NCBI RefSeq assembly: GCF_900044055.2
Contig: NZ_FCOX02000002.1
Span: 124,001 to 188,000, forward strand
Length of the DNA: 64,000 bases
DNA from: Caballeronia calidae
GTDB lineage: Bacteria; Pseudomonadota; Gammaproteobacteria; Burkholderiales; Burkholderiaceae
Direction of reading: 5' to 3'
Shown piece after piece: positions 11,089-20,240 of this stretch. The notes beneath the pieces were generated by a model. The model ran no database searches, was not told the origin of the DNA, and saw nothing but the letters and a program-made list of their open reading frames with translations. Numbering within the stretch: the first letter of the stretch is position 1; each line of letters starts with the position of its first letter. Both the position numbers and the translations under genes were made by a program.

Positions 11089-11109
11089 AACCGGGGCGAT
11101 GAGTTTTGC

Positions 11110-11137
11110 AGCGCGGCAATCGCCGCGCTTTTTTTTT
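11110..11137 (+). terminator. Intrinsic terminator after the DctA-type gene
   Basis: AGCGCGGC (11110-11117) pairs with GCCGCGCT (11122-11129) around an AATC loop. The 3' end merges into nine consecutive T (11129-11137). It separates the lyase/carrier operon from the glucosidase gene. Confidence 0.92.
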
Positions 11138-11203
11138 AACTTCGCTTATCATCGGAACACCGCGCATCGAACGCTATTGGATGGTCATCCGGTCGGAGGT
11201 CGC

Positions 11204-13945
11204 ATGCCACCGCTACGCGCAATCCATCTGCTGCAAACGAAGGAAGGCTCCCGCCTGCACGGCCCCGAACTCGACCGCTGGCGCCGCTGGGGGCCGTATC
11301 TGAGCGAACGTCAATGGGGCACCGTCCGCGAGGATTACAGCGAGTACGGCACCGCATGGGACTACTTTCCGCACGACCATGCGCGTAGCCGCATGTATCG
11401 CTGGGGCGAGGACGGCATCGCCGGCTTCGGCAACGATCCGCTCGACTGGTGTGTGTCGCTGGCGCTGTGGAACGGGCGCGATCCGATCATCAAGGAACGG
11501 CTCTTCGGGCTGACGAACGAGCAAGGCAATCACGGCGAGGATGTGAAGGAGCTGTACTTCTATCTCGACGGCACGCCGACGCATTCGTACATGAAGATGC
11601 TGTACAAGTATCCGCACGACGCGTATCCGTATCAGCAGCTCCTCGACGAAAACAGGCGGCGCGGCCCCGCGCTGCCTGAATACGAAGTGCTCGACACCGG
11701 CGTGTTCGATAACGATCGTTACTTCGATGTCTGCGTCGAATATGCGAAGCACGCGCCGGACGATATCGTGATGCGCGTCACGGTCGAGAATCGCGCGGAT
11801 GAAGCCGCGACGCTGCACGTGCTGCCGCAGTTGTGGGCGCGCAACCGGTGGGCATGGTCTAGCAAATGGGGCAAGCCGTCGCTCGTGCTGGAACAGGACG
11901 AGAAGGAAGGCCAACGGGTCGTCGGGCACAATCCGTCGCAAGGCACGATGTTCGTCACGGCTTCAGCGCACGCGCCTATTGAATGGATCTTCTGCGAGAA
12001 CGAAACGAACGTTCGTCGCATCTTCGGAATCGAAGGCGCGGGACCATTCAAGGACGGCTTCAACGACTATCTCGTCGAAGGCGATGAACAGGCTATCCGG
12101 CGAGACCGCGGCACGCGCGTCGCCGCGCATGTGAATCTGCACCTCGCGCCGCATGAGCGCTCGGTGATGTATCTGCGCTGGCGTCCCGCGTCCGTTTCGA
12201 ATGATCCGCCGCTCGATATGGAACAGCTTTTCGCGCGCCGTGAAGCGGAAGCCGACGAGTTCTATGCGACGCTGCAACACGATATCGACGATGCCGACGC
12301 GCGCCTCGTCCAACGCCAGGCGCTCGCCGGCATGTTATGGACGAAGCAGTATTACCAGTTCGATGTCACGCGCTGGCATGACGGCGATCCGGGCCAGCCC
12401 ACACCGCCGAAAGGGCGCAGGCACGGACGCAATGCGGACTGGCGCCATATGTGCAACGGCGACATCGTGTCGATGCCGGACAAGTGGGAATATCCGTGGT
12501 ATGCGTCGTGGGACCTCGCGTTTCATGCGGTCGCGTTTGCAACGATCGATCCGGACTTCGCGAAGAAGCAGTTGCTGCTGCTCGTTAAAGAGCGCTACAT
12601 GCATCCGAACGGGCAACTGCCTGCCTATGAATGGGCGTTCGGCGATGCGAACCCGCCCGTTCATGCATGGGCGACATGGCGCGTGTACGAGCTCGATCGC
12701 GAGATGACGGGCATCGGCGATCACGCCTTTCTCGAAGTCATGTTTCACAAGCTGCTGCTCAACTTCGCGTGGTGGGTCAACCGCAAGGACGCCGACGACC
12801 GCAACATCTTTCAGGGCGGTTTTCTCGGGCTCGACAATATCGGCATCTTCGATCGATCGCAGCCGCTGCCCACAGGCGGCCGCATCGATCAGGCCGACGG
12901 CACCGCGTGGATGGCCTCGTATGCGCTCGACCTCATGCAGATCGGCCTCGAACTCGCGATGACGAACGAGTCGTATGTCGAGATCGGCGTGAAGTTCTTC
13001 GAGCACTTTCTGTATATCGCCGAAGCGGTCAGTTGCGGCGAAGGCTGCCACACCGGCTTATGGGACGGCAAGGACGAATTCTTCTATGACGTGCTGCATC
13101 TTCCGGACGGCTCGCGCGTGCCCATGCGTATTCGGTCGATCGTCGGGCTGATACCGCTCTTCGCGGTGCATGTGCTCGAAGAGCGCGTGTACGGCGATCT
13201 GCCGGGACTGCGCGAGCGGCTCGTGTGGTTCCTCGATCATCGGCCGAATCTCGCGAAGCTCGTGTCGCGCTGGACCGAACCCGGCAAGGGCAATACCACG
13301 CTGCTTTCGCTGTTGCGCGGACATCGCATGAAATCACTCTTGCGGCGCACGCTCGATCCGAGCGAATTCCTTTCCGATTACGGCGTGCGAGCGCTGTCCC
13401 GCGTGCATTGTCATGCGCCGTATATCTTCGATCGCGACGGCGTGAACGTCTGCGTCAAGTACTTGCCCGCGGAATCGGACTCGCGTGTATTCGGCGGCAA
13501 TTCGAACTGGCGCGGACCGATATGGATGCCGGTCAATTACCTTTTGATCGAATCGTTGTACGAGTTTCATCGCTACTATGGCGACGAGTTTCGCGTCGAA
13601 CATCCGACGGGTTCCGGCGAGACGCATTCTCTGAGCGAGATCGCCGACGATCTTTCGCGGCGCATCTCGCGCATCTTTATGAAGGATGCGGACGGCAAGC
13701 GTCCGGTGATGGCCGCGTATCCCATGTTGCAGGCGGACCCGCGTTCGCAGGATCTGATCCTGTTTCACGAGTACTTTCATGGCGACAACGGACGCGGTGT
13801 CGGCGCTTCGCATCAGACGGGATGGAGCGGGCTCGTTGCGCTGATATTGCAGCCACGTCTGATGAAGCTGTCGCATGTGGGCCCGGAAGCGCCGGTGATG
13901 AGCGTGCGATTGCACGAGGAAGCTGCGGCGGCGATGGGGCGCTAG
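11204..13945 (+). CDS. GH63/MGH1-type glycoside hydrolase (glucosidase)
   Basis: The 913-aa protein matches the large cytoplasmic GH63-related glucosidase/mannosylglycerate-hydrolase family. The (alpha/alpha)6 barrel includes YPWYASWDLAFHAVAF (Asp of WDLAFH, likely general acid), SNWRGPIWMPVNYLLIE and LILFHEYFHGDNGRG (Glu, likely general base). The N-terminal region up to about residue 360 forms the beta-sandwich. GGAGG five nt before ATG 11204 fixes the start. The frame is open upstream through the terminator, but that part looks non-coding. No signal peptide is seen, so it acts in the cytoplasm on an alpha-glucoside such as glucosylglycerate or a glycogen-derived oligosaccharide. A universal stress protein gene follows. 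Confidence 0.88.
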   Translation: MPPLRAIHLLQTKEGSRLHGPELDRWRRWGPYLSERQWGTVREDYSEYGTAWDYFPHDHARSRMYRWGEDGIAGFGNDPLDWCVSLALWNGRDPIIKERLFGLTNEQGNHGEDVKELYFYLDGTPTHSYMKMLYKYPHDAYPYQQLLDENRRRGPALPEYEVLDTGVFDNDRYFDVCVEYAKHAPDDIVMRVTVENRADEAATLHVLPQLWARNRWAWSSKWGKPSLVLEQDEKEGQRVVGHNPSQGTMFVTASAHAPIEWIFCENETNVRRIFGIEGAGPFKDGFNDYLVEGDEQAIRRDRGTRVAAHVNLHLAPHERSVMYLRWRPASVSNDPPLDMEQLFARREAEADEFYATLQHDIDDADARLVQRQALAGMLWTKQYYQFDVTRWHDGDPGQPTPPKGRRHGRNADWRHMCNGDIVSMPDKWEYPWYASWDLAFHAVAFATIDPDFAKKQLLLLVKERYMHPNGQLPAYEWAFGDANPPVHAWATWRVYELDREMTGIGDHAFLEVMFHKLLLNFAWWVNRKDADDRNIFQGGFLGLDNIGIFDRSQPLPTGGRIDQADGTAWMASYALDLMQIGLELAMTNESYVEIGVKFFEHFLYIAEAVSCGEGCHTGLWDGKDEFFYDVLHLPDGSRVPMRIRSIVGLIPLFAVHVLEERVYGDLPGLRERLVWFLDHRPNLAKLVSRWTEPGKGNTTLLSLLRGHRMKSLLRRTLDPSEFLSDYGVRALSRVHCHAPYIFDRDGVNVCVKYLPAESDSRVFGGNSNWRGPIWMPVNYLLIESLYEFHRYYGDEFRVEHPTGSGETHSLSEIADDLSRRISRIFMKDADGKRPVMAAYPMLQADPRSQDLILFHEYFHGDNGRGVGASHQTGWSGLVALILQPRLMKLSHVGPEAPVMSVRLHEEAAAAMGR

Positions 13946-14082
13946 CGCGTTTGCCCTCGTCGGCGATTGAACGGACCGCTTCATGCGTTGGACGTGTCGC
14001 GAATCTTTCAAACGCTCGCCTATACTGGGATTGTCGGTTCGACTCTTTCCTTCATGTCCCCAGAGAGCCGGAGGACGTCATC

Positions 14083-14529
14083 ATGTTCAAGCATCTGCTG
14101 GTTCCCACAGACGGCTCGCCGCTATCCGAGGCGGCAATACATATGGCGGCGGCGCTCGCCAAGGAGAATGGCGCGCGTATCACCGGCCTTTACATGGTGC
14201 GGCCGTTTCATATGACCGTTTATAGCGCCGAGATGGTGGGCGCGGATCAGGATGAATTCCAGGCCGCGGATCGGGCGCGCGCGGAGCTCTATCTCGAGAA
14301 CGTGAAGAAGATCGCCGCTGAGGCCGGCGTGGAGTGCGATACGGAAGCGCCTTCGGGAACGCATCCTTATGAGGCCATCCTCGATACGGCCAAAGTGCGA
14401 CGCTGCGATCTCATCGTGATGGCGTCGCATGGGCATGGGGGGATTCGCGGCATGTTGCTCGGCAGCGAGACGCAGAAGGTGCTGACGCATAGTCATTTGC
14501 CGATTCTGGTGGTGAGGCCGCCGGAGTGA
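14083..14529 (+). CDS. Universal stress protein (UspA family)
   Basis: The 148-aa single-domain Usp starts MFKHLLVPTDGSPLSEAA. It keeps the ATP-binding motif G-x2-G-x9-G-S (HGHGGIRGMLLGSETQ) near the C-terminus, followed by the PILVVRPP strand. This places it in the ATP-binding Usp group. GGAGG lies upstream of the ATG. It stands between the glucosidase and a convergent aldehyde-dehydrogenase-like gene. Such proteins promote survival under energy limitation or low oxygen. Confidence 0.93.
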   Translation: MFKHLLVPTDGSPLSEAAIHMAAALAKENGARITGLYMVRPFHMTVYSAEMVGADQDEFQAADRARAELYLENVKKIAAEAGVECDTEAPSGTHPYEAILDTAKVRRCDLIVMASHGHGGIRGMLLGSETQKVLTHSHLPILVVRPPE

Positions 14530-14562
14530 GGGGTTGGGTAGAGCTTTGTTCCCGTTTGAAAC

Positions 14563-16020
14563 CTACCCCTCCAGATTCCCAAAGCAAACATACTTCGCCT
14601 CGAGATACTCTTCCACCCCCGACGACGCCCCTTCGCGCCCCATCCCCGATTCCTTGATCCCGCCGAACGGCGCGACCTCGTTGAACACGAGGCTATCGTT
14701 CACGCCGACGACGCCGCATTCCAGCGCCTCCATCACCCTGAACGCGCGGCTGATATCTGCTGTGTAGAAATAAGCCGCGAGCCCGGTGCGCGTATCGTTG
14801 GCGAGCGTGATGACATCGTCCTCGTCCCTGAACTGCAGCACGCTCGCGATGGGTCCGAGGATCTCGTCACCGCACACGCTCATCGACGGATCCACATCCG
14901 TCAGTACCGTCGGCCTGAAGAAGTTCGATCCGGGCTCCATGCGCGCGCCGCCCGCCGCGATCGTCGCGCCGAGCCTGACCGCTTCGTCGACGAGACCTTC
15001 CATCCGCGTCGCCGCCGCCTCGCTGATGAGCGGGCCGATCTGCGCGCCCTCGTCCATGCCGTCGCTCACCTTGAGCAACGCCACCTTCGACACGAGCTTC
15101 GCCACGAAGGTCTCGTACACGTCTTCATGCACGAAGAAGCGGTTCGCGCACATCGCCGCTTGCCCCGTGTGACGGAAGCGCGCATCGAGCGCGCCTTTCA
15201 CGGCGAGGTCGAGGTCCGCATCGTCGAACACGATGAACGGACAGTTCGCGCCCAGTTCGAGCGACATCTTCTTGACGGTCGGCGCGCACAAGGCCATCAG
15301 CCGCTTGCCTTCGTCGATGGAACCGGTGAACGATACCTTCCTCACATCGGGATTCGCGAGCAAGGTGCTTCTGACCGGATCGCCCTCGCCCGTCAGCACC
15401 GACAGCACGCCGCGCGGCAAGCCGGCGTTCTCGCCGAGCACGCACAGTGCGAGCGCGGAGAACGGCGTCTGGGGATCGGGATGATGAATGACCGTGCAGC
15501 CCGCGGCGAGCGCGGCGCCAACGCGCCGCGCGACCATCGACGAGGGAAAGGTCCACGACGTGATCGCGCCGCACACGCCGACCGGCTGATGCAGCACGCG
15601 GATACGCTGATTGCGGCGCGGCGCGGGAATGTTGTCGCCATAGATGCGGCGCGCTTCCTCCGCGAACCAGTCGAGGTAGTTCGCGGCCTGCGTGATTTCG
15701 GAGCGCGCTTCGTGCAGCGGCTTGCCTTGCTCGCTGCAAAGAATGATGGCGAGATCGTCGCGATGATGTTCGACGAGGCGAGCCCACTCTCTCAGCACCG
15801 ACGCGCGCTCGCGGCTGCTCCAGCTGCGCCAGTCCTGCAAAGCCGCGTTTGCGCATTCGATGGCTTCGGCCACCTGCTCCGCCGTGACCTGCGGCACGCT
15901 GCCGATGATCGCGCCCGTCGAAGGATTGGTGACGGGCACGCGCGGCAGCGAAGTGTTGTCGACCCACGCGCCGCCGATATACGCCGATTGCTCGAAAAGA
16001 CTTGGGCACTGCAATTCCAT
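14563..16020 (-). CDS. Aldehyde dehydrogenase-fold protein (GabD-like) lacking the catalytic Cys: probable pseudoenzyme
   Basis: The 485-aa protein aligns end to end with succinate-semialdehyde dehydrogenases and keeps the fold motifs FTGSIDEGKRL, LELGANCPFIVFDDADLD, EILGPIA and APFGGIKESGMGREG. The active-site block reads GQAAMCANR where the family has GQTCVCANR, so the nucleophile Cys is Ala289 (codon 15154-15156). The oxyanion-hole Asn of PWNFP is Thr157 (SWTFP). The cofactor-ribose Lys of LKPA is His180 (IHHPD). The general-base Glu remains. Length is normal and the frame intact, so it is expressed-looking but should not oxidise aldehydes by the standard mechanism. Start: GGAGCG precedes ATG 16020; another ATG lies four codons upstream. 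It may act as a regulator, binder or altered enzyme. Confidence 0.85.
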   Translation of the reverse strand: MELQCPSLFEQSAYIGGAWVDNTSLPRVPVTNPSTGAIIGSVPQVTAEQVAEAIECANAALQDWRSWSSRERASVLREWARLVEHHRDDLAIILCSEQGKPLHEARSEITQAANYLDWFAEEARRIYGDNIPAPRRNQRIRVLHQPVGVCGAITSWTFPSSMVARRVGAALAAGCTVIHHPDPQTPFSALALCVLGENAGLPRGVLSVLTGEGDPVRSTLLANPDVRKVSFTGSIDEGKRLMALCAPTVKKMSLELGANCPFIVFDDADLDLAVKGALDARFRHTGQAAMCANRFFVHEDVYETFVAKLVSKVALLKVSDGMDEGAQIGPLISEAAATRMEGLVDEAVRLGATIAAGGARMEPGSNFFRPTVLTDVDPSMSVCGDEILGPIASVLQFRDEDDVITLANDTRTGLAAYFYTADISRAFRVMEALECGVVGVNDSLVFNEVAPFGGIKESGMGREGASSGVEEYLEAKYVCFGNLEG

Positions 16021-16229
16021 GGCTCGCTCCATGCGTTCTGCGCTTTGTGCATTCCGGATGCACCGAGCTTAACGCATTTTTCGGGCCATTCGATAACGCT
16101 GGGCTTCGCTGTCGTATCAGTGCTGCGGCATGTCGCGCCGACGATGAATCGAGTGAAAAGCGACCGGCCGGTCGATGGATCGCCGATGGCGGCGGCGCAT
16201 CATCGATGCGCGCGCCGCCGCTGCGGGCC

Positions 16230-17891
16230 TCAATGGCTCGCGCCCTCCACCGCGCCGATGCCCGTCTCGGAGCGCACCGTCTGCGCTTCGAAGCCGGCCT
16301 GATCGATGCGCGCACGCGCCGACTTGTCCGTCACCGAGAAGAGCCAGATGCCGATGAAACCGATCGCCATCGAGAACAATGCGGGCGACGCATACGGGAA
16401 CGGCGCATTCGCGTAGTGGAACACATCGACCCATACGGCCTTCGAGAGCACCGTCAACACGACCGCCGAAAGCAGGCCGAGGAAACCGCCCACTGCCGCG
16501 CCGCGCGTCGTGCAGCCGCGCCACAGCACGGACATGAAGAGCACCGGGAAGTTGGCCGACGCGGCGACAGCGAACGCGAGCGACACCATGAACGCGATGT
16601 TCTGCTTCTCGAACACGATGCCGAGCACGACCGCGACGATGCCGAGCACGATCGTCGTGATGCGCGAAACCTTCAGCTCGCTCTTGCTCGACGCGTTGCC
16701 CTTCTTGAACACGGTCGCATAGAGATCATGCGACACCGCCGATGCGCCCGCGAGCGTCAGACCCGCGACCACCGCGAGAATAGTGGCGAATGCAACTGCC
16801 GAGATGAAGCCGAGGAATACATTGCCGCCGACCGCGCTGGCCAGATGTACCGCTGCCATGTTCGTGCCGCCGAGGAGCTTGCCGCCCGCGTCCTTGAACA
16901 TCGGGTTGGTGCTGACCAGCACGATCGCGCCGAAGCCGATGATGAACGTGAGAATGTAGAAGTAGCCGATCCACGTCGTCGCCCAGAACACCGACTTGCG
17001 CGCTTCCTTCGCGTTCGGAACGGTGAAGAAGCGCATCAGGATGTGCGGCAGGCCGGCCGTGCCGAACATCAGCGCGATGCCGAAGGAGATCGCCGAGATC
17101 GGGTCCTTGATGAAGTTGCCCGGACCCATGATCGACTCTTTCTTCTCGTGCACCTCGACGGCCTTCGCAAAGAGCGCCTCGGGGCTGAAGTGGAACTGCC
17201 ACAGCACCATGAACGCCATGAACGAAGCGCCCGCGAGCAGCAGACACGCCTTGATGATCTGCACCCAGGTGGTCGCGGTCATGCCGCCGAAGAGCACGTA
17301 CACCATCATCAGCGCGCCGACGATCACCACCGCGATCCAGTATTCGAGCCCGAACAGCAGCTTGATGAGCTGACCCGCGCCGACCATCTGCGCGATCAGA
17401 TAGAACGCCACCACGACGAGCGTGCCCGACGCGGCGAACGCGCGAATGGGTGTCTGCTTGAAGCGGTACGCGGCCACGTCGGCGAACGTGAAGCGGCCGA
17501 GATTGCGCAGGCGCTCCGCCATCAGGAACGTGATGATCGGCCAGCCGACGAGAAAGCCGATCGAATAGATGAGGCCGTCATAGCCATTGCTATAGACGGC
17601 GGCCGAAATGCCGAGAAACGAAGCCGCCGACATGAAGTCGCCCGCGATCGCGAGACCGTTCTGGAAGCCCGTGATGCCGCCGCCCGCCGTATAGAACTCG
17701 GCGGCCGAGCGCGTCTTCTTCGCGGCCCATTTGGTGATGAAGAGCGTCGCGATCACGAACGCGATGAACATGCAGATGGCGGTCCAGTTCGTCGCCTGCT
17801 TGACGGCCTGGCCGAGATCGCCGCCGGCGGCGAAGGCACTGGCGGATGCGGCGAAAAGCGCGCCGGCCGCGAGGAAACGTTGCGGCTTCAT
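16230..17891 (-). CDS. actP: Cation/acetate symporter ActP (SSS family)
   Basis: The 553-aa inner-membrane protein begins with a cleavable-looking signal ([21 protein letters not shown]) and contains about 13 membrane helices of the sodium:solute symporter family. Recognisable blocks are [21 protein letters not shown] and [16 protein letters not shown] near the N-terminus. Its ATG overlaps the TGA of the upstream DUF485 gene (ATGA), the arrangement of yjcH-actP. It imports acetate and related short-chain acids. Possible links are the acetate kinase pathway further on, or acetyl-CoA synthetase elsewhere in the genome. Confidence 0.93.
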
Positions 17892-18193
17892 GCAGCCTCC
17901 CGCTTGATCTTGTCGGTGAGTTCGTCGTACGTGCTGTTCGCGTGACGCACATAGAGGCCCGTGATGACCACGGTGAAGACGATCACGAAAAGGCCGATCG
18001 GCATGCCCCAGGTCATCACGCCCGCGCCCATCTTCGCGGCGAGCAGATCCTTGTTGAACGCGATCAGCAGCACGTAGCCGTAATACACGATCAACACGAG
18101 CGCCGTCAGCGTCCAGCCGAGCTTCGAGCGTTTTCGCACCAGTTCGTGATACGCGGCGCTCGACTTGATTTTTTCCACGATCTTGAGGTCCAT
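17888..18193 (-). CDS. DUF485 small inner-membrane protein (YjcH-like)
   Basis: The 101-aa protein has two transmembrane helices ([20 protein letters not shown] and [19 protein letters not shown]) and the family N-terminal motif [17 protein letters not shown] lies 6 nt before ATG 18193; an upstream ATG at 18208 is less well placed. It overlaps the start of actP by 4 bp and is always associated with acetate symporters, presumably as an accessory subunit of unknown mechanism. Confidence 0.9.
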
Positions 18194-18968
18194 CTCCGTC
18201 TCCTGCATGAAGGTCTTCTCTCTGCCTGCGAATGCGTCCGCGTTCGGCGCAATGCACGAACGATCAGCGAACCTTGGAATTAAGGACGTCCCCGAGCGGG
18301 GACATCATGCGATGCTCTCGCGCATGCTGTTTCAGGCAAGTTGTGCTTTCGATGCGCTGGAGACTAAGGTAAGAGCGTCCGCTTACCCGTTTCTTACGTG
18401 AGGCGTTTTCTTTTGGCGGGGTTTACGCGAAGCATTGGGCGTCGTCATTCGCTCGATAGCACATGGCGCCAGCATGACAGCATCGACAAAAAAGCATCGG
18501 CGTTTTCCTTCAGCGTTTCATGAACTGGCATGTCGAAGCGGACCGGACCGCCGCCGACACCAATTCACCCCCGTGACAAGGCCGACAAGTAATTGCTGCG
18601 CTTTCCGTTCCGCACGTCAAGTCAAAATGGCATCAAAGGCTATGGCGTTTTCAGCCGAGTTCAGCTATTACTAGACTCGTCACGCACGTCACGTTAAGCG
18701 ACGGCGCAGCATGAGCAGCTCTCTCGCTAAAAATCGACCGTCAAAACCGGAGGCAGCTACGACACACCACAAGCATCAGGCTCGCGCTCGTTGACGTCGC
18801 CAAAGAGTCCTGTCCCGCGCGATTTCATCGCATGGCGAACACGCTTCTGGAACACCCGCGTTTTCCAGGCGCGCATTCGCTGAACAGCACACCGCGAGCA
18901 TGCCGCGGCGACGCGCCTTCATGCGCGCTCGCTCATCAACGATCGGCCATCCCAAGAGGGAGGCGCCT
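18194..18968. other. 775-bp intergenic region between DUF485-actP and the RND efflux operon
   Basis: No convincing gene is present; the short open frames (for example a 79-codon one at 18435-18674) lack family likeness and good ribosome sites. The region must hold the divergent promoters. Visible structure: a perfect hairpin GTCCCC-GAGC-GGGGAC at 18288-18303, about 95 bp before DUF485; a GGTAAG/CTTACC inverted repeat around 18368-18388; and a direct repeat CGTCACG-CA-CGTCACG at about 18678-18693. No TetR- or LysR-type efflux regulator gene is adjacent. Confidence 0.5.
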
Positions 18969-20240
18969 ATGGCGTTCGTGTCGGAACAGTTACTGGACTG
19001 CAGCTCGTTCGTTCAACCGTCGCGCCCGATGCGCGCACTGCGTCTCTTCGCAGTCGCCGCGACCGCGTCGCTCGCGCTCGCCGCGTGCAAGAAGCAGGCC
19101 CCCGAAGCGCAGAAGCCCCCCGTCGATGTCACGGTCGTGACGGTCGCCGCGCAATCGACGCCCGTCGACTTCGAATTCACGGCGCAGACACAAAGTTCGC
19201 GCGAAGTGGAAATCCGCGCGCGCGTCGACGGCTTTCTGGAAAAGCGCATGTACACCGAAGGATCGCTCGTCAGCGAAAACCAGGTGATGTTCCTCATGGA
19301 CAAACGTCCGTTCGAGGCCGCGCTGCAGACCGCCAAGGGCTCGCTCGCGCAGCAGCAGGCGCGGCTCCTCGTCACGCAGCAGAATCTCGCGCGCGTGAAA
19401 CCGCTCGCCGCGATGAACGCGTTGAGCAAGAAGGATCTCGACGATGCCGTCGGCAACGAGAAGAGCGCCGAGGCCGCCGTGATCGCCGCGAAAGGCGAAG
19501 TGCAGACCGCCGAGCTGAACCTCAGTTACACGACGATCCGCTCGCCGCTCAAAGGGCTGTCGAGCTTCGCGCGCGTGCAGGAAGGCAGCTACGTGACGCC
19601 GACGCAATCGGGCCTGCTCACCCTCGTCTATCAGCTCGACCCGATGTGGGTGAACTTCAGCATCTCCGAAAACGAGCTGCTGACCTACCGCGAGCAGATC
19701 CAGAAAGGCCAGCTGCGCTTTCCGCCCGACGACAAGTTCGATGTGACCGTGATTCTGGCCGATGGCTCGGTCTATCCGCAGACCGGCCGCATCGACTTCA
19801 CGAATCCGGCGTTCAACACGGAAACGGGCACGTTCCTCGTGCGCGCGGTGTTCTCCAATCCGAAGGGCACGCTGCGACCCGGCCAGTTCGTGAAGGCGCG
19901 CGTAGCGGGCGCGGTGCGGCCCAACGCGATACTCGTGCCGCAGCGCGCCGTCTTGCAGGGCGCGAAGAGCCATTTCGTCTGGGTGCTGGACAACGAATCG
20001 AAGCCGCGCCAGCGTGTCGTCGAAGTCGGCGAATGGCACGGCGACAACTGGTTCGTCACGGATGGCCTGAAGGCGGGCGAACGCGTCGTCGTCGATGGCG
20101 CGATCCGGGTCAGCGCGGATTCGCATATCCGCGTCGTCGCCGCGCCCGCCGCGCCCGCCGCGGGCGAAGCGCCGGCGTCGGGCGCGCAGGAGGCGTCGCT
20201 CGACAAGACCAAGACCGACAGCGGCGGGACCGGCAAGTGA
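18969..20240 (+). CDS. RND efflux periplasmic adaptor lipoprotein (MexA/AcrA family)
   Basis: The 423-aa protein has a lipobox (SLALAAC, Cys about residue 40) and then the adaptor order: hairpin and lipoyl halves (VDGFLEKRMYTEGSLVSENQVMF, LSYTTIRSPLKGLSSFARVQEGSYV) and beta-barrel (IDFTNPAFNTETGTFLVRAVF). It ends in an Ala/Pro-rich tail. GGGAGG seven nt before ATG 18969 supports that start. It gives an unusually long N-region before the lipoprotein signal, and ATG 19029 (MRALRLF) is an alternative. It couples the RND pump to the outer-membrane factor. Confidence 0.93.
   Translation: MAFVSEQLLDCSSFVQPSRPMRALRLFAVAATASLALAACKKQAPEAQKPPVDVTVVTVAAQSTPVDFEFTAQTQSSREVEIRARVDGFLEKRMYTEGSLVSENQVMFLMDKRPFEAALQTAKGSLAQQQARLLVTQQNLARVKPLAAMNALSKKDLDDAVGNEKSAEAAVIAAKGEVQTAELNLSYTTIRSPLKGLSSFARVQEGSYVTPTQSGLLTLVYQLDPMWVNFSISENELLTYREQIQKGQLRFPPDDKFDVTVILADGSVYPQTGRIDFTNPAFNTETGTFLVRAVFSNPKGTLRPGQFVKARVAGAVRPNAILVPQRAVLQGAKSHFVWVLDNESKPRQRVVEVGEWHGDNWFVTDGLKAGERVVVDGAIRVSADSHIRVVAAPAAPAAGEAPASGAQEASLDKTKTDSGGTGK

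Follow-up and report, generated by a model that had tools for sequence, protein, structure and literature searches.

A clade of ALDH5/GabD-like proteins in Caballeronia with alanine in place of the catalytic cysteine

The pseudo-ALDH gene and its surroundings

The window, by which we mean the whole 64,000-nucleotide stretch of Caballeronia calidae DNA that was analysed, carries on its reverse strand an open reading frame for a protein of the aldehyde dehydrogenase (ALDH) type in which the catalytic cysteine is replaced, here called pseudo-ALDH. The frame (14563–16032) encodes 489 aa and has no internal stop. An ATG at 16020, giving a protein of 485 aa (14563–16020), was preferred as the start codon, because it is shared with the homologues and has a GGAG directly upstream. 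Residue numbers refer to the 485-aa protein unless they are marked as 489-aa numbering, which starts from the ATG at 16032.

The protein consists of a single Pfam Aldedh domain (PF00171), which matched residues 23–482 of 489 with 523.8 bits against a gathering score of 23. This whole-length match above the gathering score places pseudo-ALDH in the ALDH superfamily. Within the superfamily, it is kin to the ALDH5/GabD family. The best NCBIfam models are those of succinate-semialdehyde dehydrogenases (SSADHs), although both curated cut-offs were missed (TIGR01780, 589.5 bits against 646.35; GabD NF008415, 600.6 bits against 828), and the nearest solved structures by sequence are also SSADHs, from E. 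coli and other organisms. The host genome is 9.6 Mb in size, and its nearest relatives, as judged by the pseudo-ALDH gene, are other Caballeronia species.

Upstream on the same strand lies actP, encoding a cation/acetate symporter (16230–17891; NF006903.2, 976 bits against a cut-off of 750). Besides the host locus, actP was found in this position in all 16 of the named close Caballeronia loci. On the other side, a universal stress protein gene (14083–14529, forward strand; Pfam Usp) converges on the pseudo-ALDH gene; it is the neighbour in nine of the 16 loci, and a glycoside hydrolase is present in 15. In the window, the universal stress protein gene is adjoined by a gene for a 948-aa protein (11099–13945) with mannosylglycerate hydrolase-like and GH63 domains, which scored far under the cut-off of the one NCBIfam model that it matched, an α-glucosidase. 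The arrangement changes outside the close Caballeronia group. All ten other loci with enough flanking sequence (Paraburkholderia, subclade 2, and the loci L059 and L063 described below) lacked actP, while L045 was too short, and among the loci read there was no neighbour common to all those outside the group. In Paraburkholderia sp. UYCP14C (L048:2779–7452), another ALDH-family gene, an MFS/sugar transporter gene and the pseudo-ALDH gene stand in a row on one strand.

Between actP and the pseudo-ALDH gene is a promoter-like block of 16 bases, AAATGCGTTAAGCTCG (16064–16079, reverse strand), which was identical in all 17 of the Caballeronia upstream regions that were aligned, while much of the surrounding intergenic DNA is variable. 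Its core begins 40 to 70 bases ahead of the start codon. We read the TTAAGCT in this block as a putative −10-like element, which would give pseudo-ALDH a promoter of its own; a scan of 14000–19000 with the σ70 consensus found no promoters, where 1.1 would be expected. With up to two mismatches allowed, the genome contains the block only once (a reversed control pattern occurred four times), and the block therefore points to no further regulon gene. A terminator-like hairpin (16161–16174, reverse strand) was also picked up between the two genes by a consensus scan, which returned seven such sites in 5 kb against 3.7 expected. The possibility that an operon with actP gives a clue to function was considered and rejected, since the block and the hairpin intervene and the two genes are linked only in close Caballeronia. 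Because the neighbours differ between lineages and the gene has its own promoter-like block, pseudo-ALDH most likely acts in trans.

The active site and the predicted fold

The initial annotation had recognised three replacements relative to GabD, and all three were borne out when the codons were checked. The position of the catalytic Cys is occupied by Ala289 (GCG, 15154–15156), that of the oxyanion Asn by Thr157 (ACC, 15550–15552), and that of the cofactor Lys by His180 (CAT, 15481–15483), all on the reverse strand. The same annotation had described an intact ALDH without a stop codon and with the general-base Glu kept, which agrees with the open frame, the whole-length Aldedh match and the presence of Glu255. 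The ALDH2 numbers and residue roles used below are those that we take to apply at the corresponding positions of pseudo-ALDH; equivalents of human residues were assigned by constant offsets and not from a printed alignment.

Several further replacements were found beyond these three. Ala288 replaces a Thr and His284 an Asn, and Met290 and Ser443 are likewise substitutions. Leu388 stands in place of Phe (F401 equivalent), Ala258 in place of Gly (G270 equivalent) and Arg217 in place of a Gly of the NAD region. Phe446 occupies the position of the Ser that binds succinate semialdehyde (SSA; equivalent to S498 of human SSADH), and Arg166 replaces the Lys equivalent to human K214. The SSADH set of catalytic Cys, oxyanion Asn and SSA-binding Ser is thus represented by Ala, Thr and Phe. 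Other elements of the SSADH site are kept, as mapped by constant offsets: the general base Glu255, the carboxylate-binding Arg165 and Arg283 (Arg213 and Arg334 equivalents), the equivalents of E399 and E515, the Trp of WNFP, and Cys291, the second Cys of the CxC motif. In human SSADH, according to PMC11681614, Arg213, Arg334 and Ser498 bind the substrate, and a Lys214Ala mutant has 1.2% of its activity left. With two Arg and the Glu kept, the site in pseudo-ALDH could in principle still bind a carboxylate, and the exchange of Ser for Phe should change which carboxylate binds.

The structure of pseudo-ALDH was predicted with AlphaFold2, giving a mean pLDDT of 84.8 and a pTM of 0.86. A Cys-bearing control, P0041, predicted from the same 51 sequences, gave the same values (84.8 and 0.86). 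Both models had a stretch of low confidence near the C-terminal loop, at 444–469 in pseudo-ALDH and 442–466 in P0041. The catalytic loop (289–293 in 489-aa numbering) fell below 50 in pseudo-ALDH only, with a block mean of 65 in P0041. We considered whether this low confidence could be a sign of disorder, and set the idea aside, since the control was weak there too. A Foldseek search with the pseudo-ALDH model returned SSADH-like enzymes as the best matches, with TM scores of about 0.91–0.92. The likeness to GabD/ALDH5 enzymes, such as E. coli 3jz4 and human ALDH5A1, thus extends over the whole length of the fold, with 52% of the residues identical to those of E. coli GabD when aligned by Foldseek, and includes the general-base Glu, the two carboxylate Arg, the second Cys of CxC and the E515 equivalent. 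The differences are the missing nucleophile Cys and oxyanion Asn, the Phe at the position of the SSA-binding Ser, and the altered NAD(P) site.

A conserved clade and the selection acting on it

A homologue search scored 8,000 candidates, of which 5,239 had E ≤ 1e-150; the 120 matches listed were analysed together with the query. Among these 121 sequences, the nucleophile position was Ala in 42 and Cys in 79. The Ala sequences were 65–93% identical to the query (up to 94% for genomic copies), compared to 57% for the nearest Cys-bearing sequence among the matches listed. Asn occupied the oxyanion position in all 79 Cys-bearing sequences, whereas the 40 clade members in which this position was present had Thr (31), Ala (8) or Met (1). 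A tree was built by a quick method, and drawn from its midpoint, from 38 Ala and 24 Cys sequences (21 of the 78 other Cys-bearing proteins and three gabD), after five partial or odd sequences (P0030, P0039, P0040, P0049 and P0081) had been dropped. All 38 Ala sequences fell on one side of a single branch with an SH-aLRT support of 100, and the stem of the Ala clade measured 0.57 changes per column.

The cofactor Lys divides the clade. It is substituted by His, Gln, Tyr or Ser in 35 of 35 members of subclade 1, to which the query belongs, and retained in all seven members of subclade 2. In the tree, the seven Lys-keeping sequences lie outside a group of 31 sequences that lack the Lys (support 99). 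By parsimony, this placement suggests that Cys and Asn were lost first, and the cofactor Lys later. The question of whether the same Ala, Thr and His recur in an orthologous clade, which had been raised with the initial annotation, is thus answered in favour of recurrence: Ala recurs in one clade, and Thr in most of it (31/40), although the change from Lys to His is not clade-wide, as 7/42 sequences keep the Lys.

At the genome level, the GQAAMC motif and an open frame were present in 35 of 35 genomic copies, of which 30 were distinct and five were repeats. Within the genus, 25 of the 58 genomes have the gene, that of the host included, with one match each at E ≤ 1e-180; it is dispensable, as the remaining genomes do without it. 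Among 398 genomes sampled from the family, 26 contained it, 25 of them within this genus; it also occurs in named Paraburkholderia records. Caballeronia arvi has, besides an intact copy (L037), a second, diverged copy in three pieces (L059:6001–7449) that are 78–84% identical by piece, and in Candidatus Burkholderia humilis (L063:6001–6576) only about the C-terminal 190 residues remain.

Selection on the gene was compared to that on Cys-bearing gabD from 14 genomes that also hold pseudo-ALDH. By the NG86 method, the median dN/dS in the matched genomes was 0.093 for pseudo-ALDH and 0.089 for gabD (91/91 pairs), and a one-ratio codon model gave ω = 0.053 (24 sequences, 19 distinct) and 0.045 (14 sequences), respectively. 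The dN/dS comparison proposed with the initial annotation thus gave a value as low as that of gabD in the same genomes. When all 35 copies were included, distant pairs among them, the NG86 median rose to 0.108 and the highest value was 0.374 (dS was usable in 428 of 595 pairs), so pseudo-ALDH moved faster between the subclades. The codon for Ala289 was GCG in 22 and GCC in 13 of the 35 copies; it is therefore the alanine that is conserved, and not a frozen codon. Essential catalytic residues are thus missing throughout a clade that is under purifying selection, which is one general mark of a pseudoenzyme. The suggestion in the initial annotation that the gene had been selected for a non-dehydrogenase role, rather than being in decay, is supported by the recurrence in one clade and the gabD-like dN/dS.

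The replacements are not spread evenly over the protein. Of 167 positions that are at least 97% conserved in the Cys-bearing sequences, 19 are replaced in >90% of the Ala clade, and 15 of these 19 fall in the active-site segments, which hold only 52 of the 167 conserved positions (Fisher p = 7e-6, odds ratio 11). This concentration argues for targeted change and against even erosion. Conservation was then compared by entropy after redundancy filtering, which left 32 of 38 Ala and 45 of 78 Cys sequences. The pocket segments on the nucleophile side had a mean entropy of 0.19 in the Ala clade, compared to 0.75 elsewhere in the protein; the corresponding values for the Cys-bearing sequences were 0.32 and 0.96. 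A single new residue was found in 32/32 Ala sequences at positions 161, 281, 284, 288, 289, 290, 385, 388 and 446, and in 31/32 at positions 258 and 443. The role as a mere shell for a partner, which the initial annotation had also entertained, is disfavoured, because conservation in the pocket segments still far exceeds that of the remaining protein.

Other parts of the protein behaved differently. In the NAD(P)-site segments (adenine, ribose and phosphate), conservation was relaxed, with a mean rank of 0.65 in the Ala clade vs. 0.51 in the Cys sequences, and a stretch just after the general base (261–275 in 489-aa numbering) had lost conservation in the Ala clade (0.50 vs. 0.08), so the surroundings of the active site were not kept tight throughout. 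The oligomerisation arm was instead tightened (mean rank 0.41 vs. 0.57), and residues 133–147 (489-aa numbering) came first of 458 15-residue stretches in gained relative conservation. This pattern of a drifting cofactor site, a tightened arm and a fixed pocket is a strong hint rather than proof, since the segments were set from motifs, no adjustment was made to the entropy p-values, and the arm was picked after seeing the data.

Possible functions and related proteins

Taken together, the sequence comparisons point to a protein whose old dehydrogenase chemistry is likely lost, and which has probably been re-tuned to bind a small molecule without NAD as its cofactor. The reading that we favour, and rate as evenly balanced between right and wrong, is that pseudo-ALDH is an ALDH5-derived pseudoenzyme that would bind a ligand without a cofactor and act through protein contact. 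By analogy with human SSADH Cys340Ala, it would be dead as a dehydrogenase, with no turnover, and NAD(P) binding would have been lost as well. A small carboxylate may be bound in the re-tuned pocket, formed by His284, Ala288, Ala289, Met290, Leu388 and Phe446 together with the retained Glu and two Arg. The protein would presumably be an oligomer, and ligand binding could be passed on through contact with another protein. The neighbouring genes point to no such partner, as actP is linked to the gene in the close Caballeronia loci alone. Full loss of the cofactor may not apply to the whole clade, part of which might still bind nucleotide, because subclade 2 keeps the cofactor Lys in all seven members.

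The retained and newly fixed Glu, His and Arg would suit a new non-redox enzyme equally well. In such a protein, a pocket rebuilt around the old residues Glu255, Arg165 and Arg283 and the new ones His284 and Phe446 would carry out cofactor-free hydrolysis, hydration, isomerisation or decarboxylation of a carboxylate. Such an enzyme would account for pocket segments as tight as those of the Cys-bearing relatives, with nine positions newly fixed in every sequence and two in 31 of 32, and for the retention of the Glu, both Arg and the E515 equivalent. We consider it unlikely, though worth keeping in view, as no catalytic triad or metal site was recognised in pseudo-ALDH and the lineage-variable neighbours name no pathway. 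Less probable still is that pseudo-ALDH forms mixed assemblies with one of the cell's Cys-bearing GabD paralogues, as a regulatory subunit that alters the activity or stability of that paralogue. According to PMC11681614, most ALDH5 enzymes are presumed to be tetramers, the genome has at least three Cys-bearing GabD-like paralogues, and the arm includes the segment that gained most in conservation. However, the arm matches that of the cell's own GabD (L117) in only nine of 25 residues, below the 51% identity of the whole protein, so self-association fits better than mixing, and a pure assembly role would leave the conservation of the pocket unexplained.

A working dehydrogenase is harder to reconcile with the data. 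The initial annotation had raised the possibility that Cys291 might be recruited in place of the missing nucleophile, and this residue is indeed invariant in the clade (42/42), but the same holds for all 79 Cys-bearing sequences, and both the loss of the oxyanion Asn and the altered NAD site stand against the idea. Moreover, according to PMC11681614, the equivalent residue in human SSADH, Cys342, is a redox-regulatory Cys, and the Cys340Ala and Cys340Ser mutants had ≤0.1% activity and did not bind NAD+, even though Cys342 was still present. Cys291 would therefore be a poor rescuer, and by analogy dehydrogenase activity of pseudo-ALDH is very unlikely; we give recruitment of Cys291 very little credence. 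Least credible of all is that the gene is decaying or the product of a sequencing error. That copies can be lost is clear from the broken second copy in C. arvi (L059) and from the C-terminal piece left in Ca. Burkholderia humilis (L063), but 30 distinct intact copies carry the same motif. Decay of the copy studied here is very unlikely, because dN/dS is as in gabD, the motif is kept and the Ala289 codon varies synonymously.

More broadly, and as a tentative proposal that may well be wrong, a whole bacterial lineage may have turned an NAD(P)-dependent ALDH into a protein that needs no cofactor and has a pocket that is both new and strictly conserved (Ala-Ala-Met, His284, Phe446, two Arg and Glu255). 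This protein would serve either as a carboxylate sensor or as a new class of non-redox enzyme on the ALDH fold. ALDH pseudoenzymes are already known from animals; a search of the open-licence PMC literature found no stand-alone conserved clade of bacterial ALDH pseudoenzymes within the SSADH family. The animal protein ALDH16A1 is an inactive pseudoenzyme that likewise has an ALDH fold without the catalytic Cys and Asn, according to PMC10650815. Pseudo-ALDH does not fit the ALDH16 type, which has about 800 aa (802 aa in ALDH16A1) and lacks the whole catalytic triad, including the Glu: it is a single-domain bacterial protein of 485 aa in which the Glu is kept. The Cys340Ala mutant of human SSADH (2w8p, titled human C340A SSADH) has the same replacement at the same position, but by one engineered change, whereas the clade described here is natural and differs at 19 otherwise conserved positions. 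In the ALDH-derived lens crystallins, as described in the same paper (PMC10650815), an ALDH fold has also taken on a second, structural job; those, however, are animal lens proteins in which the crystallin and the enzyme are the same protein, and pseudo-ALDH has no such context.

The drifting cofactor site, set against the fixed new pocket, makes the clade a natural experiment on the re-use of an enzyme fold. There is also a practical side to its recognition. Those members of the Ala clade that carry a name in their sources are called succinate-semialdehyde or glutarate-semialdehyde dehydrogenase, or aldehyde dehydrogenase family protein, and these names would lead pathway reconstructions to include an enzyme activity that is probably absent.

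Loss of the catalytic Cys is rare even in this ALDH-rich genome. A search of the host genome gave 67 ALDH matches, in 60 of which the nucleophile position could be read; 58 had Cys, one was pseudo-ALDH with its Ala, and one had Leu. The last of these is a PutA-like protein of 1268 aa (L158:7018–10824, on contig C24 of the host genome, G000), with DNA-binding, proline dehydrogenase and ALDH domains, in which the ALDH domain also has PSASP in place of PWNFP. Its gene lies about 3.5 kb downstream of that for a Cys-bearing stand-alone ALDH, which may supply the missing step.
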